Of a stretch of DNA of 64,000 nt, positions 28,197-62,255 are shown in pieces. The notes under the pieces were generated by a model, which worked only from the letters and a program-made list of their open reading frames with translations, was not told the origin of the DNA and ran no database searches. This stretch comes from Mycolicibacterium brumae. GTDB lineage: Bacteria; Actinomycetota; Actinomycetes; Mycobacteriales; Mycobacteriaceae. A program made the translations under genes and the position numbers. Location of the stretch: assembly GCF_025215495.1 (NCBI RefSeq), contig NZ_CP104302.1, forward strand, positions 3,038,001 through 3,102,000, read 5' to 3'. The stretch's first letter is position 1. Each line of letters opens with the position of its first letter.

Positions 28197-28337
28197 GCCG
28201 ATTCGACGAGCGGGCGAGGAAGAGATCGGCTGCGTCAACACACGCCGATTCGACGAGCGGGCGAGGAAGAGATCGGCTGCGTCAACACACGCCGATTCGA
28301 CGAGCGGGCGAGGAAGAGGTCGGCTGCGTCAACACAC
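28197..28337. repeat. Three tandem copies of a 47-bp unit upstream of pdtaS
   Basis: Units at 28197-28243, 28244-28290 and 28291-28337 are identical except for one base in the third (AGAGGT for AGAGAT). The core GACGAGCGGGCGAGGAAG resembles a sequence inside the SRAP gene at 35630-35660. The array lies 5 bp from the pdtaS start, so it falls in the pdtaS 5' region. Confidence 0.95.
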
Positions 28338-28343
28338 GCCGTC

Positions 28344-30721: not shown

Positions 30722-31567
30722 ATGTCCCTCTCCGGAAAGACCATGTTCATCTCGGGCGGCAGCCGCGGCATCGGCCTGGCCATCGCCAAGAAGGTCGCCG
30801 CCGACGGCGCCAATATCGCGCTGCTGGCCAAGACCGCCGACCCGCACCCGAAGCTCCCGGGCACCATCTACACCGCGGCCAAGGAGATCGAGGAGGTCGG
30901 TGGCCAGGCGCTGCCGATCGTCGGCGATGTGCGCGACGGCGACTCGGTGGCCGCCGCGGTCGCCGCGGCCGTCGCGCAATTCGGCGGCATCGACATCTGC
31001 GTGAACAACGCCTCGGCGATCAACCTTGGCTCGGTCGAGGAGGTGCCGCTGAAGCGCTTCGACCTGATGAACGGCATCCAGGTGCGCGGCACCTACACGG
31101 TGACCCAGGCCTGTCTGCCGCACATGAAGGGCCGGGAGAACCCGCACGTGCTGACGCTGTCCCCGCCGATCCTGCTGGAGCCCAAGTGGCTGCGGCCCAC
31201 GCCGTACATGATGGCGAAGTACGGAATGACGCTGTGCGCCTTGGGTATTGCCGAGGAGATGAAGGAGTACGGGATCGCGTCGAACACGCTGTGGCCGCGC
31301 ACCATGGTCGCCACCGCGGCGGTGCAGAACCTGCTCGGCGGCGACGAGTCGATGGCGCGCTCCCGCAAGCCGGAGGTGTATTCCGACGCGGCGTACGTGG
31401 TGCTGAACAAGCCGTCGAGCTACACCGGGCACACCCTGCTCTGCGAGGACGTGCTGCTGGAGTCCGGCGTCACCGATCTGTCCGCGTACGACTGCATCCC
31501 GGGATCCGAACTGGGCGTTGACTTCTGGGTGGAATCGGCCAACCCGCCGGGTTACGCGGGCCCGTAA
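30722..31567 (+). CDS. Short-chain dehydrogenase/reductase (Rv3224-like)
   Basis: Protein of 281 aa. SDR signatures: TMFISGGSRGIGLAIAK (nucleotide-binding GxxxGxG), CVNNASAI (NNAS) and the catalytic YMMAKYG (YxxxK). It resembles the HSDL2-like group of SDRs with a long segment after the first strand (TADPHPKLPGTIYTAAKEI). Substrate unknown. The 192-bp gap after ybaK and the TACAGT box argue for separate transcription. It is convergent with the ALDH gene, with palindromic array B between them. Confidence 0.9.
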   Translation: MSLSGKTMFISGGSRGIGLAIAKKVAADGANIALLAKTADPHPKLPGTIYTAAKEIEEVGGQALPIVGDVRDGDSVAAAVAAAVAQFGGIDICVNNASAINLGSVEEVPLKRFDLMNGIQVRGTYTVTQACLPHMKGRENPHVLTLSPPILLEPKWLRPTPYMMAKYGMTLCALGIAEEMKEYGIASNTLWPRTMVATAAVQNLLGGDESMARSRKPEVYSDAAYVVLNKPSSYTGHTLLCEDVLLESGVTDLSAYDCIPGSELGVDFWVESANPPGYAGP

Positions 31568-31620
31568 GGATTTGTGAGCGGCCCGGGCTGTCCGGGCCGG
31601 ACTGGCGCACTTTGGAAGCG

Positions 31621-31951
31621 TTGGCGGACCGAGCCGTCCAGTGAGAGCTGACGCACGTTGGTGAGAAGCCTTGGCGGACCGGACCATCGACTGAGAACTA
31701 GCGCACGTTAGTGAGACGTGACGCAGGTCAGTGAGACGTGGTGGCGGCCATTCTCATCGAATGAGAACTGGCGTACACGTTGTGCGAGTAACCCCCGCCC
31801 GTACGTCTCACTCAATGAAGAACCCATCCCTCAGGTCTCACCGACGTACCTCAGTTCTCACTAGAGTGCCTGCGATCTCACTCGATGACGGTGTGCGCCA
31901 AGGATTCTCACTAACCGACCTGAGTTCTCACTCGATGGCGGCAACCCGAGC
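31621..31951. repeat. Palindromic array B: twelve phased NTGAGA boxes
   Basis: Left-arm boxes start at 31641, 31661, 31691, 31711, 31731 and 31761 (NTGAGA). Right-arm boxes start at 31806, 31836, 31856, 31876, 31906 and 31926 (TCTCAN). Spacings are 20, 30, 20, 20, 30, then 45 across the centre, then 30, 20, 20, 30, 20, an exact mirror around 31786. Boxes after a 30-bp gap are usually preceded by a CATCGA-like motif (TCGATG on the right arm). The array lies between the convergent SDR and ALDH genes; the rest of the 430-bp gap holds no gene. Confidence 0.92.
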
Positions 31952-31997
31952 AAGGAGGAGCTACTGCGCCGCGGCGGCTTTGCTTGCGACGCGGCGG

Positions 31998-33509
31998 TCA
32001 CCGGCCGAATTTGCGCTTCCAGCCCTGGGCGTTGACCAGCCGCATGGCCTTGAGCAGCATGCCGGTTTTGCGGTCGGTCGCGGGATACCAGAGCAGCTCG
32101 GACTTCATGGTCGGGGTGCGCGGGGCGGTGATCGCCTGCGGGCGACAGTATTTCAGCAGCCCCGCGTCGCCGCCGGCGCGGTGGCCGAGGCCGGATTCCT
32201 TCCAGCCGGCCATCGGGACGTTCGGGCAGAAGATGTTGGTCATCGCGTCGTTGACGTTCACCGCGCCGACCTCCAGCCGGGTGGCGATCCGCTCGCCGCG
32301 GGCCACATCGCCGGTCCACACCGAGGCGCTCAGGCCGTACTCGCTCTGGTTGGCCAGCCGGATGGCCTCATGCTCGTCGGCGACCTTGATCACCGGGATG
32401 GTCGGACCGAAGGTCTCCTCGGTCATGCAGGTCATGGTGGGGTCGACATCGGCGAGCACCGTCGGCGCGAAATAGGTGCCCACGCCGGTGGGCTCACCAC
32501 CGGTGAGCACCCGGGCGCCGGCCGCGGTCGCCTCACCGACGTGGCGGGCGACGATGTCGCGCTGGGTGTCGGTCGCCATCGCGCCGATGTCACCGGCCGC
32601 GCCCTGGCTGACCGACCGCGCCTTCTCGGTGAGCTTCGCGACGAACTCGTCGTACACCGGGGCCTCGACGAACACCCGTTCCACCGACACGCACACCTGG
32701 CCCGAGTTGAACAGCCCGCCCCAGAGCACCCCGTTGGCGGCGCGTTCCAGGTCGGCGTCGGCCAGCACGATCGCGGGGTCCTTGCCGCCGAGCTCCAGGC
32801 CGAACGGGATGAGCCGCTCGGCGCAGGCCACCGCAACCCGCCGGCCGGTTCCCGTCGACCCGGTGAACTGCAGGTAGTCGACGTTGTCGATGACCGCGGC
32901 GCCGGTGGCGCCGTAGCCGGTGACGACGTCGAGCACCGGAGGCGCGCCGATCTCGTTCCAGCCGCGGACGATCTCCAGCCCGGACAGCGGAGTGACCTCG
33001 GAGGGTTTGAGCAGCACCGCGGCGCCGGCGGCCAGCGCCGGGATGCCGTCCATGCACGGCAGCGCGAAGGGGAAGTTCCACGGTGAGATGACGCCGACCA
33101 GCTGGTGCGGGCGGTACCAGGTGGTGAATCGCTTGTTCTGGTACAGCGGGCTGTGAGCCTTGGGGTGGCTGGCTTTGAGGAACGTCGCGGCGTTGTCGGC
33201 CCAGTAGGTGGGCATGGTGGCGGTGGCGACGATCTCGACGCCCGCGTCGCGGCGGGACTTGCCGGCTTCGGAGATCAGCACGTCGGTGAGATGGTCGACG
33301 TTGTCGAACGCCCAGTCCTGCCACTGCCGCAGCCAGCGGCCGCGCTCGACGGGCCCGATGGCCTCCCACTCCTGCTGCGCGGTGCGCAGCCGCGCCGCTT
33401 TCTCTGCCACCACCGACGGTCCGTGCACCGGGATGGAGCCGACCTGCGTTCCGTTGGCCGGGTTGCGGATCGCGATGGTCTCGTCGACGGTCGGTTCAGT
33501 GGCGGTCAT
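31998..33509 (-). CDS. Aldehyde dehydrogenase family protein
   Basis: Protein of 503 aa. Complete ALDH core: ISPWNFPFALP, TGSTGTGRRV (cofactor), FGLELGGKDP (catalytic Glu), FNSGQVCVSVERVFVEAP (catalytic Cys) and EETFGPTIPV. It oxidises an aldehyde to the acid with NAD(P)+. The C-terminal tail (LLWYPATDRKTGMLLKAMRLV) is as in succinate-semialdehyde or long-chain ALDHs of actinobacteria; the substrate is not deducible. Start ATG at 33509. Probably monocistronic. Confidence 0.9.
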   Translation of the reverse strand: MTATEPTVDETIAIRNPANGTQVGSIPVHGPSVVAEKAARLRTAQQEWEAIGPVERGRWLRQWQDWAFDNVDHLTDVLISEAGKSRRDAGVEIVATATMPTYWADNAATFLKASHPKAHSPLYQNKRFTTWYRPHQLVGVISPWNFPFALPCMDGIPALAAGAAVLLKPSEVTPLSGLEIVRGWNEIGAPPVLDVVTGYGATGAAVIDNVDYLQFTGSTGTGRRVAVACAERLIPFGLELGGKDPAIVLADADLERAANGVLWGGLFNSGQVCVSVERVFVEAPVYDEFVAKLTEKARSVSQGAAGDIGAMATDTQRDIVARHVGEATAAGARVLTGGEPTGVGTYFAPTVLADVDPTMTCMTEETFGPTIPVIKVADEHEAIRLANQSEYGLSASVWTGDVARGERIATRLEVGAVNVNDAMTNIFCPNVPMAGWKESGLGHRAGGDAGLLKYCRPQAITAPRTPTMKSELLWYPATDRKTGMLLKAMRLVNAQGWKRKFGR

Positions 33510-48808: not shown

Positions 48809-49084
48809 CGTCTACTCGTTTCTCTTTTGCGTCGCGCGCAGTGCGCATTTGGTCTCACATGATCTGACACTTGAGCGGGGAGTCTACGTCTTCTCAACAC
48901 CCGCGGAGAGCAGGTGGACGCATCACCTCCTGCCGATTCCGGCTTGTCCGACTGTGTCGATCGGTATGCCCCGACCGTAGCCCGATTCAACCGTGAGTTT
49001 CCACCTCTTTCACGCACCAGTTACCTGATCTTTAGGCCCGAGTTTCATGGACTGCGGTCACTTGGGCCGGGCGTGTCCGGGGGT

Positions 49085-49192
49085 CGGGTTTCCTGCGGGG
49101 CTCGGGGTTTCGGCGGGGCTCGGGTGTCCGGCGGGCTCCGGGTTTCGGGGGGGCTCCGGGTTTCCGGCGGGCTCCGGGTTTCGGGGCCGGCG
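49085..49192. repeat. 18-bp tandem repeat, six units
   Basis: Units start at 49085, 49103, 49121, 49139, 49157 and 49175; approximate consensus CGGGTTTCCGGCGGGCTC. G-rich on the plus strand. It ends directly at the edge of palindromic array C. A short minus-strand frame across it (49058-49369) is low-complexity Pro/Glu and is not called as a gene. Confidence 0.9.
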
Positions 49193-49495
49193 CCATCGAG
49201 TGAGAATCCAGGGACGCCTTTGAGACATGACGGCGGGGCGGCCCATCGACTGAGACCTCAGGGAGGCGTTTGAGAAATCAGGGATGCGAGTGAGAGCTCC
49301 GGGCGGCCGTTCCCCGTCGAATGGAACGTGGTGGCGACCGCAGGACGCAAAACCGCCCAGGTGTTCCACGCGACGGAGAACCGGAACCGTGGCGTCTCAC
49401 TGACCTACCTCATGTCTCAAATGCATCCCAGAGATCTCAATCGATGACGGCCCCGCCACCAGTTCTCACTCGCCTGCCTGAATTCTCGGTCGATG
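49193..49495. repeat. Palindromic array C: twelve phased NTGAGA boxes
   Basis: Left-arm boxes start at 49200, 49220, 49250, 49270, 49290 and 49321 (the last degenerate, ATGGAAC). Right-arm boxes start near 49365 (degenerate, TTCCAC), then 49395, 49415, 49435, 49464 and 49484. Spacings are 20, 30, 20, 20, 31, 44, 30, 20, 20, 29, 20, the same plan as array B although the sequence between boxes differs. It lies in the gap between comF and hpf, both on the minus strand. Confidence 0.9.
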
Positions 49496-59371: not shown

Positions 59372-60214
59372 ATGGAGCGAGTGTTCATTGGCAGCGAGGC
59401 GCTGGCGGCCGGGCGAATCACCCGGCACGACCTACGCCACCACTGCGTCCGCGTGCTGCCGGGCGTCTATGCGAGCAAGACGATCACCCTCACCATCGAA
59501 GACCGTGCGATCGCCACCTGGCTCTGGTCTCGGCGGCGCGGGGTGATCACCGGGTTGGCGGCCGCCGCCCTGTTGGGGGCGCGCTGGGTTGACGACGACA
59601 TCCCCGTCGACCTGAACTTCGACAACAACAAGGCGCCACCCGGCGTGCGGGTTCATCGAGACCTGTTGCTGTCACACGAAACTCAGTCGGTGGGCGGCCT
59701 GACGGTGACCTCCGCCGCGCGGACCGCCCTGGACCTCGCGCGCAGTGGAACCGTCCGGGAGGCCGTCGCGCGGTTGGACGCGCTGGCGCGCGCGACGCGG
59801 GTCACGGCGGACGAGGTGTCAGAACTCGCACGGTCGCACCCCAATCTGCGCGGCGTGCGACGGGTCGCCGAAGCCCTCGATCTGATGGATCCCGGCGCGG
59901 AGTCGCACCCGGAGTCCTGGCTGCGGTTGCTGTACATCGAGGCCGGCTTCCCGCGGCCGCAGACGCAGATCCCGGTGCCGCGTCAGGACGTCGACGGCAA
60001 CTTCTACCTCGACATGGGATGGGACGACGTGATGGTGGCCTCCGAGTACGAGGGCGACGACCATCGCCTGGATCCGGTCACGGCCCGCGAAGACATCACC
60101 CGCCTGGAGTACATCCAGTCGCAGGGCTGGACGGTGATCCGCGTCGTCGCGAAGATGCCGCGCACCGAGATTCTCCGGCGGATCCGGCTGGTTTGGCCGG
60201 CGAGGGCGCGCTGA
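59372..60214 (+). CDS. AbiEi-type antitoxin domain / DUF559 nuclease-fold protein
   Basis: Protein of 280 aa. The N-terminal part (GSEALAAGRITRHDLRHHCVRVLPGVYAS) resembles the winged-helix domain found in AbiEi antitoxins and many mycobacterial paralogues; TSAARTALDLAR is also typical. The C-terminal half (SWLRLLYIEAGFPRPQTQIPV, LDMGWDDVMVASEYEGDDH, QGWTVIRV) fits the DUF559/Vsr-like PD-(D/E)xK fold with Asp and Glu in place. No AbiEii toxin gene follows; an IS110-family element comes 50 bp downstream. Function unknown. Confidence 0.75.
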   Translation: MERVFIGSEALAAGRITRHDLRHHCVRVLPGVYASKTITLTIEDRAIATWLWSRRRGVITGLAAAALLGARWVDDDIPVDLNFDNNKAPPGVRVHRDLLLSHETQSVGGLTVTSAARTALDLARSGTVREAVARLDALARATRVTADEVSELARSHPNLRGVRRVAEALDLMDPGAESHPESWLRLLYIEAGFPRPQTQIPVPRQDVDGNFYLDMGWDDVMVASEYEGDDHRLDPVTAREDITRLEYIQSQGWTVIRVVAKMPRTEILRRIRLVWPARAR

Positions 60215-60245: not shown

Positions 60246-60266
60246 GCGGAACTGCCATCGACTGAG
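60246..60266. repeat. Left fragment of palindromic array D, cut by the IS element
   Basis: GCGGAACTGCCATCGACTGAG carries the first L-type box (CTGAG at 60262-60266), broken in its last base. The same CATCGACTGAG occurs in arrays B, C and D. The remainder of the array resumes at 61952. Confidence 0.85.
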
Positions 60267-60455: not shown

Positions 60456-60504
60456 CAGGCGGCCCGCGTAGCGGTGTCGTCGATTGGGTGGGAGGTCAAC
60501 CAGG

Positions 60505-61875
60505 ATGAGGCGTAAACAGTTTCCGTCATCGGCGCCGGAGGAGATCCCCGACGCTGATTTCGAGTTGGTGTGTCAACGGGTCGCCGCTATCGATGTCGCG
60601 AAGGCGTTCGGGAAGGTGTGCGTGCGGACTCCGGGGCCAACGCGGCGGGTCAGCAAGGTCTGGGACGTCGAAGCCACCTGCGGCGCGGTCACGGAGTTGG
60701 GCGAAACGTTGGCCACCTCGGGGGTCGAGAAGGTCACGATCGAGTCCACTTCGGACTATTGGCGGATCTGGTACTACCTGCTGGAGGCGGCGGGGTTGTC
60801 GGTGCAGTTGGTCAATGCCCGTGACGTCAAGAATGTCCCGGGGCGGCCGAAGACCGACAAACTCGACGCGGTGTGGCTGGCCAAGCTCACCGAAAAGGGT
60901 TTGCTGCGGCCCAGTTTCGTGCCACCGGCCCCGATCCGGGAACTGCGTGACTACACCCGCCTACGGGTGGATCTGACCCGGGAACGCACCCGGTATTGGC
61001 AACGGTTGGAAAAACTGCTCGAAGACGCGGCGATCAAAGTCTCCACGGTGGCCTCCAAACTGAGCACCGTCTCGGCGCGGGAGATGGTCGAGGCGTTGAT
61101 CGCCGGGGAACGCGACCCGGCCAGGCTGGCTGACCTGGCCCGCGGCCGGATGAGAATGAAACGTGCGGAGCTGATCAAGGCCCTCGATGGGCGTTTTGAC
61201 GACCACCACGGGGAACTGGCCCGGATGCTGCTCGGCCAGATCGACGCGCTCAACGCGGCGATCGCGACGCTGAGCACCCGTATCGAGGACCTGATCACCG
61301 CCATCGACCCCGGCCCGGGCCCTGATGGCCCCGGCGGGTCATCGGAGCCCGGCGGTCACGACGGGTCCCCGGCCGGCGGGGACTGGATGCCAGCAGTTGA
61401 GCGTCTCGCCGAAATCCCGGGGATCAGCACCACCAGCGCGCAGATCATCCTCGCCGAGATCGGGATGGACATGACACAGTTCCCCACCGCCGCGCACCTG
61501 GTCTCCTGGGCCAAACTGTGCCCGCGGGCCATCTCCTCGGGGCCGGTGACCCGCACCGGCCGCACCGGCAAGGGCAATCCCTACCTCAAAGGGGCCCTCG
61601 GTGAAGCCGCCGCCGCAGCAGCCAAGACCGACACGTTCCTCGGCGAGCGGTACCGCCGCCTGGTCAAACGCCGCGGCAAACTCAAATCGCAGGTCGCGGT
61701 CGCCCGCTCCATCCTCGTCGTCATCTGGAATCTCCTGTCAGACCCCACAGCCCGATTCCACGACCTCGGATCCGACTACCACACCAACCAGATCAGCACC
61801 GAACGACGAATCCGCAACCACGTCGCCCAACTGAGCGCCATGGGCTTCCACGTCACCATCGAACCCGCCGCCTGA
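60505..61875 (+). CDS. IS110-family DEDD transposase/recombinase
   Basis: Protein of 456 aa. The RuvC-like catalytic residues are visible: Asp30 (AAIDVAK), Glu80 (VTIESTSDYW), and Asp118/Asp121 (KTDKLDAVWLAKL). After a coiled-coil region and a Gly/Pro-rich insert comes the Tnp20 domain (EIPGISTTSAQIILAEIG, HLVSWAKLCPRAISSGPVTRTGRTGKGNPYLKGAL) with the serine region used for covalent strand exchange. It appears full-length and intact. The ATG at 60505 has GGAGG at 60491-60495. Confidence 0.95.
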   Translation: MRRKQFPSSAPEEIPDADFELVCQRVAAIDVAKAFGKVCVRTPGPTRRVSKVWDVEATCGAVTELGETLATSGVEKVTIESTSDYWRIWYYLLEAAGLSVQLVNARDVKNVPGRPKTDKLDAVWLAKLTEKGLLRPSFVPPAPIRELRDYTRLRVDLTRERTRYWQRLEKLLEDAAIKVSTVASKLSTVSAREMVEALIAGERDPARLADLARGRMRMKRAELIKALDGRFDDHHGELARMLLGQIDALNAAIATLSTRIEDLITAIDPGPGPDGPGGSSEPGGHDGSPAGGDWMPAVERLAEIPGISTTSAQIILAEIGMDMTQFPTAAHLVSWAKLCPRAISSGPVTRTGRTGKGNPYLKGALGEAAAAAAKTDTFLGERYRRLVKRRGKLKSQVAVARSILVVIWNLLSDPTARFHDLGSDYHTNQISTERRIRNHVAQLSAMGFHVTIEPAA

Positions 61876-61951
61876 CGACTACGCCAAAGAACAAACCCGG
61901 CTCCGCCGGGTGCCTTCGGCCTGCCCACTCACCCTGGGCTATTTTCCGGTC

Positions 61952-62255
61952 AGAACCCAGGTAGGTCAGTGAGACATCTGGGCGACGGCTCCATCGACTG
62001 AGGAACCAGGGCGCTTAGTGAGACCTCAGGGCGCTTGGTGAGACACCAGGGCGGCCCGATTCATCGAGTGAGAATCTAGGGACCCGTTGTGCGAGTACAC
62101 GTGTGCGACATTTCTCATTCGATGAAAATCGCATCCCAGGTTTCTCACCAAGCACCCTGGCGTCTCACCAAGCACCCTGGCGTCTCACTGGATGACCGGA
62201 CCGCCAACATTTCTCACTAGCCGCCCAGGTTTCTCGCTGGATGGCGGAGCCGCAA
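61952..62255. repeat. Palindromic array D (main part): phased NTGAGA boxes
   Basis: With the first box completed from the left fragment, left-arm boxes fall at (60262), 61969, 61998, 62018, 62038 and 62068; right-arm boxes at 62113, 62143, 62163, 62183, 62212 and 62232. Spacings after removal of the IS are 20, 29, 20, 20, 30, 45, 30, 20, 20, 29, 20. Two right-arm units are exact 20-bp repeats (from 62143 and 62163). The arms are closely complementary. It lies before the convergent permease stop codon. Confidence 0.92.

Follow-up and report, generated by a model that had tools for sequence, protein, structure and literature searches.

The stretch of DNA analysed here (the window) comprises 64,000 nucleotides of the Mycolicibacterium brumae genome and carries three inverted arrays of short boxes, together with a gene for a predicted nuclease that is separated from the third array by a transposase gene. 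The features of the window are as follows, all on the forward strand:

31641..31767, + strand: left arm of array 1, with NTGAGA at 31641, 31661, 31691, 31711, 31731 and 31761 (steps of 20, 30, 20, 20 and 30)
31754..31818, + strand: centre of array 1, the 65-bp core, matched by covariance model R2 at contig 3069754-3069818
31806..31931, + strand: right arm of array 1, with TCTCAN at 31806, 31836, 31856, 31876, 31906 and 31926
49194..49495, + strand: array 2, with arms of the array 1 kind and a type B centre at 49314-49376 (TGGAA/TTCCA, gap 37)
59372..60214, + strand: gene of 280 aa, AbiEi-like DNA-binding and Vsr/DUF559-like nuclease, candidate partner protein of the arrays
60255..60266, + strand: possible remnant L-box CCATCGACTGAG, just 3' of the nuclease gene, read directly
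60484..61875, + strand: IS110-family transposase gene between the nuclease gene and array 3 (Pfam DEDD_Tnp_IS110, 4e-24; Transposase_20, 2e-17)
61950..62243, + strand: array 3, with its core at 62061-62125 and degenerate outermost boxes

Array 1 contains six NTGAGA boxes at offsets 0, 20, 50, 70, 90 and 120 from 31641 and six TCTCAN boxes at offsets 165, 195, 215, 235, 265 and 285, as had been claimed in a preliminary description of this DNA. The TGAGA motifs, read directly, start at 31642, 31662, 31692, 31712, 31732 and 31762, and TCTCA at the six positions given for the right arm; the exact mirror symmetry that had been asserted for the array agrees, for the box positions, to the base. The left arm overlaps a tandem repeat called at 31615-31716, and the core is composed of a 14-bp outer inverted repeat and an asymmetric middle (...CACGTTGTGCGAGTAACCCCC). 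A protein-coding reading of the array units was set aside, since 20 is not a multiple of 3.

Box arrays with fixed spacing

Within the window, TGAGA-N(14-15)-TGAGA occurs 14 times, in every case with N15, where 0.06 occurrences would be expected, and the extended pattern TGAGA-15-TGAGA-99-TCTCA-15-TCTCA fits arrays 1, 2 and 3 exactly while being found in 0 of 100 shuffles. The proposal that two further arrays of the window share one plan with array 1 is refined for the centre, which in array 2 is formed by TGGAA/TTCCA across a 37-bp gap rather than by TGAGA/TCTCA across 39. Despite this different centre, array 2 keeps the inner S-to-S distance of 104. The window also includes a 47-bp unit in 3.1 tandem copies with 98% matches (28197-28341), as well as G-rich tandem repeats with periods of 18, 36 and 53 that adjoin array 2 on its left (49073-49186).

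The window arrays belong to a family of 28 array loci in the single-contig genome of 3,988,920 bp, where 21 loci have a type A core, six have a type B core and one, at 907 kb, is degenerate. TGAGA-N15-TGAGA is present 121 times in the genome (59 + 62), compared with 0 for the reversed control pattern, which places the spacing well above chance, and the copies are mostly diverged, some being near-identical, and thus are not all recent identical duplicates. From the centre outward, the units follow the order L, S, S and then L and S in alternation, so that array lengths vary by 50-bp L/S units; the outward extent differs among arrays, with ten boxes on one side of the array at 1.146 Mb. Of 19 aligned type A arrays, 18 have a central gap of exactly 39, and a gap of 37 is seen in five of the six of type B, the central boxes of which (TGGAA/TTCCA) are shifted inward by one base per side. 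Arrays of both types generally keep an inner S-to-S distance of 104, the one at 1.026 Mb having 103. The boxes nearest the array centre are almost invariant and the inter-box sequence is variable. Indeed, the existence of a family with kept spacing and diverged sequence is upheld by this genome-wide survey, and sites for protein binding are its best explanation. By eye, each array unit resembles a copy of the palindrome arm CATCGAGTGAGAAnnnAGGGACG.

The DNA helix makes one turn in approximately 10.5 bp. The steps of the arrays are near whole helical turns, as had been proposed, but those of 20 and 30 bp drift by about 0.4 turn over 120 bp, and the further proposal of a protein bound strictly to one DNA face is thus too simple.

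As judged with a crude gene caller, which mis-called the gene to the right of array 1, 13 of the 28 arrays are situated between convergent genes, an arrangement shown by 40 of 200 neighbouring pairs taken from these stretches; three arrays are situated between divergent genes, and the loci are spread round the chromosome. At contig 2692500-2697000 (L066), one array is split by a Mutator-type transposase gene. An autonomous transposon within this 2.69-Mb array was considered and rejected, since the transposase gene sits in that single array.

With a model of the array centre (R1; seven candidates scored per genome, strict filters), full TGAGA arrays are found in two of 396 genus genomes, namely the window genome (G000) and a relative (G394). 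A search of IMG/VR gives no array match, and a search of 84,980 named species genomes, from which the species itself is possibly absent, returns nine stretches, all in Bacteroidota, the one inspected being an unrelated 10-bp microsatellite. Two genus genomes, G187 and G045, have inverted arrays of another box (TTGAGCGTGAA/TTCACACCCGA and similar) with a step of exactly 20 bp (L105:1493-1690 and L107:1442-1653), and palindromes at L234 have arms (CGAGTGTGAA) similar to these boxes. The presence of the exact 20-bp step with another box indicates that the step arose or was retained across differing box families, and the G187 and G045 arrays are probable members of the same superfamily as the TGAGA arrays.

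The 65-bp core and the gene that diverges with it

The 65-bp core is matched by covariance model R2 (E <= 1e-3) in 210 of 396 genus genomes, the window genome included, where 13 candidates were scored per genome under strict filters and one palindrome may count on both strands. Nearly all of the R2 matches listed are 65 bp long, and the 34 matches in the window genome correspond to 21 places. Beyond the full arrays, R1 yields eight weak hits, five of which are lone centres (L102, L104, L106, L111 and L108), the other three (L103, L105 and L107) being palindromes or arrays with another box. The lone centres located measure 65 bp, equal to array centres, and changes in their boxes are mirrored across both sides (TGAGA/TCTCA, TCAGA/TCTGA and TGAGG/CCTCA). 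In addition, seven of the 14 pairs of the core stem are altered on both sides, as against 0 of 500 shuffles.

Some cores are placed approximately 950 bp apart as a direct repeat and enclose one gene of about 280-300 aa. At 13 of the 60 homologue loci retrieved, R2 cores stand on both sides of the gene; some of the 13 share one insertion site (RDD/DUF4191), and in all 13 the cores form a direct repeat antisense to the gene, which reads short at L208 and L239. The downstream palindrome overlaps the stop codon in many loci (offsets -2 to -17), and at L154 and in G394 the stop of the gene is the TGA of the box itself. This genus-wide centre, the nuclease gene associated with it and the likely partner gene near array 3 had all been overlooked in the preliminary description, the interpretation of which is supported in part.

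A de novo scan performed without R2 detects strong palindromes upstream of the gene in 29 of 46 windows (22 of 920 shuffles), downstream in 27 of 47 (38 of 940) and inside the gene in three of 47 (43 of 940), in loci that are not a neutral sample: of 30 genomes, 20 were picked for many cores and 10 for none, five more were also picked, and kinship and common insertion sites are uncorrected. The scan covered 47 of 57 loci with a hit, one of them without an upstream window; loci were dropped where identity was below 40%, the gene was short or a stop was missing. For palindromes scoring 9.5 or more, the arms on the two sides of the gene are more alike within a locus than between loci (13.5 versus 6.0; 0 of 300 permutations, 21 loci), and the similarity of arms tracks the identity of the proteins (rho 0.43, 0 of 1000, 39 loci). 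The gene and the palindrome diverge together, and homologues of other clades have palindromes of their own. The core motif GTGCGAGT is common to several box types; a loose motif set is found in 20 of 64 palindromes and in none of 47 controls, and 19 of the 20 palindromes lie antisense to the gene. Strong palindromes are not found by the scan beside some homologues (for example L187, L193, L196, L197 and L237), nor in the immediate flanks of the window gene (L184), the 3' side of which is disrupted.

In G160, five cores on one strand follow the nuclease gene, grouped as two and three at a spacing of 82 bp (L223:2374-3372), which is a different way of multiplying the palindrome. In the draft genome G257 (83% complete), R2 gives 10 matches and a search at E <= 1e-30 yields no homologue, which may reflect either missing sequence or a lost enzyme.

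The window gene is its own genome's best homologue (54% identity) of a core-flanked protein. Core-flanked proteins match AbiEi profiles in their N-terminal part and DUF559/MTES_1575, below threshold, in their C-terminal part, and the window protein matches AbiEi profiles (PADLOC) at E 7e-11. Foldseek comparison of its AlphaFold2 model (pLDDT 92.4) retrieves 1zel (Rv2827c, an AbiEi-type antitoxin; E 1e-3, TM 0.42) as best PDB hit and the catalytic domain of I-Bth0305I (3r3p; probability 1.0, E 0.024, TM 0.71 by target length) as fourth. On this predicted fold, the window protein probably combines an AbiEi-like DNA-binding part with a Vsr/DUF559-like nuclease part. Pfam scans of four proteins (L161, L154, window and G394) reveal no transposase domain, and no AbiEii-like gene was noticed beside the nuclease gene when the ORF lists of L161, L154 and the window were read by eye. 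Homologues number 3017 at E <= 1e-10 among 7999 scored, and the named close homologues come from Mycobacterium and Mycolicibacterium; searched against plasmids, the window protein gives one weak match at E <= 1e-15, and against phages none at E <= 1e-10.

The nuclease gene is located at an array in both array-bearing genomes. In G394, the syntenic gene has its stop codon within the first box of its array, and the interval is too short for the IS110-family transposase gene. In the window, the remnant L-box sequence suggests that array 3 may formerly have begun at this position after the nuclease gene.

Insertion sites and possible explanations

The junction between the RDD and DUF4191 genes was viewed at 26 loci, eight of which are without the RDD gene. 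Among the 18 genomes with both genes, the junction is empty in 12, with 0-68 bp between the stops, and is filled by core-nuclease-core in two (1055 and 1061 bp), by a solo palindrome of another box type in two, by a core with an apparent nuclease remnant in one and by an unrelated 323-bp stretch in one. At this junction in G003 (L265), the core is followed by the apparent 3' end of the nuclease gene, possibly an internal deletion form. A 34-bp direct repeat flanks the unit in G261; flanking duplication exceeds the cross-locus level at one of 14 loci, with nothing at the other 13. The positions of arrays in G000 and G394 differ in part, including two reciprocal occupied/unoccupied sites, where the intergenic DNA has diverged too far for exact insertion borders to be placed.

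We suggest, with a probability of approximately 0.7, that the arrays are amplified, multi-site recognition platforms of a mobile family of nuclease-palindrome elements. The unit of the element would be the 65-bp palindrome, and its full form palindrome, gene, palindrome. We infer a course of binding, cutting and spreading, with a benefit of many boxes: the protein would bind the boxes at roughly one monomer per half-site, in the way that AbiEi antitoxins bind inverted repeats, and would nick or cut within the asymmetric core or close to it, which may spread the palindromes in the manner supposed for RAYT enzymes and REPs. In the window lineage, each arm of the palindrome would then have been multiplied at 20- and 30-bp steps to give 12-box platforms, which may recruit many copies of the protein in register.

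Several observations count against this mobile-nuclease reading. DUF559/MTES_1575 matches in the window protein are below the Pfam curated cut-offs, and although the EY(D/E)G..H motif is present, the window protein and that of G394 have E where D is usual. Array 3 has a same-place counterpart in G394, such that at least one array site is common to both species. Homologues of the nuclease are present in all ten genomes picked for zero R2 matches, one of which (G011) gives a single R2 match under laxer filters. The core is on the strand of the nuclease gene in the array lineage (window array 3 and L185), and on the opposite strand in the 13 two-core loci. Finally, the modest fold matches (TM 0.42 for 1zel, E 0.024 for 3r3p), the single flanking duplication among 14 loci, the result for G257 and the homologues at which the palindrome scan was silent, that of the window included, also weigh against it.

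The preliminary description had offered a long RNA hairpin as one explanation, and arrays could more generally act as hairpins of RNA or of extruded single-strand DNA, for example as transcribed structures that, between convergent genes, would terminate transcription in both directions or stabilise mRNA. Array 1 alone does fold at -154 kcal/mol and its shuffles at -113 (z -7.5), but a strong fold of this kind is what boxes repeated in mirror order yield by themselves. The convergent setting of 13 of the 28 arrays is also in keeping with a hairpin, as is the covariation of the central 14-bp stem between species, although the latter would likewise be expected of a palindromic binding site. When the boxes are masked, however, complementarity between the two arms is no greater within an array than between different arrays (0.597 versus 0.591, permutation p 0.27), and exchanging arms between arrays does not clearly reduce folding stability (-144.7 native versus -141.7 swapped; native better in 10 of 18, p 0.39), both comparisons being made on 18 of the 25 aligned arrays after six of type B and one with a 38-bp gap were dropped. 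RNAalifold reaches only -7.4 kcal/mol for the 25 arrays, with zero pairs changed on both sides, and Rfam returns no match at E <= 1 for window 31000-32600. Hairpin pairing of the array arms is not favoured by selection, and we consider a hairpin function unlikely.

Fixed geometry with diverged sequence, at 28 loci round the chromosome of which three lie between divergent genes, might also be found if a host nucleoid, partition or supercoiling protein used the phased boxes as a platform, the nuclease gene being a passenger or a domesticated architectural protein. Such a service to the host appears improbable given that full arrays are found in two of 396 genomes (strict filters), that array sites are partly different between the two species and that the core accompanies the nuclease gene. 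The dispersed copies, inverted boxes and single 34-bp flanking duplication are also reminiscent of a conventional MITE, a non-autonomous transposon mobilised by a DDE transposase whose gene lies elsewhere; the nuclease gene would then be its cargo. This would, however, be at odds with the lack of a regular target duplication (13 of 14 loci at cross-locus level) and with the co-divergence of palindrome arms and nuclease, and the transposase genes met at arrays are one IS110-type and one Mutator-type, each in a single array; we therefore regard a MITE as a very improbable origin.

On balance, we favour extending the mobile-nuclease reading to a so far undescribed class of elements, widespread among mycobacteria, whose AbiEi/Vsr-type nuclease would spread either together with the operator-like palindrome that belongs to it or separately from it. 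The REP-RAYT principle would then have been invented a second time, independently, with an unrelated enzyme. One lineage would have built 12-box platforms, locked in their spacing, to which a multi-protein nuclease complex is recruited, and other lineages would have done likewise with other boxes at the same 20-bp step. If true, this would link the intergenic palindromes of mycobacteria with AbiEi-type DNA binding and with proteins annotated as hypothetical, DUF559 or 'very-short-patch-repair endonuclease'. The clade-specific arms would provide natural matched pairs of protein and site for decoding how AbiEi-type proteins read DNA, the 12-box arrays would offer a test case for conservation of spacing alone, and the spread of selfish palindromes would become testable in ordinary laboratory mycobacteria.

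Comparison with known systems

The closest parallel in mode of operation is provided by REP/BIME sequences and their RAYT enzymes (REPtrons), described as multicopy palindromic intergenic repeats that flank the gene of a dedicated DNA-cleaving enzyme, co-diverge with it and cluster (PMC2817692). Here too, the repeats also occur away from the gene. In contrast to RAYTs, the enzyme is AbiEi- and Vsr-like and not an IS200/IS605-type (PF01797) transposase, the flanking palindromes are direct repeats (13 of 13 two-core loci) and not inverted, the unit is 65 bp, and there are 12-box arrays with fixed 20- and 30-bp steps. Because enzyme type and repeat orientation differ, the nuclease-palindrome system works like REP/RAYT without being a member.

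The Myt-1 stem-loop family of M. tuberculosis is introduced as 72 bp long, structured and present in 75 copies, with no function given in the part of the source that describes it (PMC2267715). A relation to the palindromes here is no more than a possibility, and the same part of the source names no enzyme for Myt-1 (PMC2267715).

AbiEi antitoxins (AbiE type IV toxin-antitoxin, Rv2827c) share with the window protein the N-terminal profile match and the best fold match, but here a nuclease-like domain and many dispersed target palindromes are present in addition. According to the account of their operators, AbiEi and Rv2827c bind 23-bp inverted repeats that are 3 and 13 bp apart within a pair, and Rv2827c binds two tandem pairs of inverted repeats (PMC7319586). 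By analogy, such pairs resemble the palindromes here in span. The Vsr-like EDxHD homing endonuclease I-Bth0305I appears, from the structural model, to share the fold of its catalytic domain (3r3p) with the window protein, and it likewise shows presence and absence at an insertion site. Unlike I-Bth0305I, the nuclease here is associated with no intron or intein, and palindromic repeats both accompany the gene and stand alone.

Among the matches listed in the open-access literature, there is no paper on DUF559 with Mycobacterium, and none that by its title or the start of its abstract links such a nuclease to palindromes. As judged against that open-access literature only, it is on the pairing of this enzyme with this repeat that the distinction of the system as new rests.
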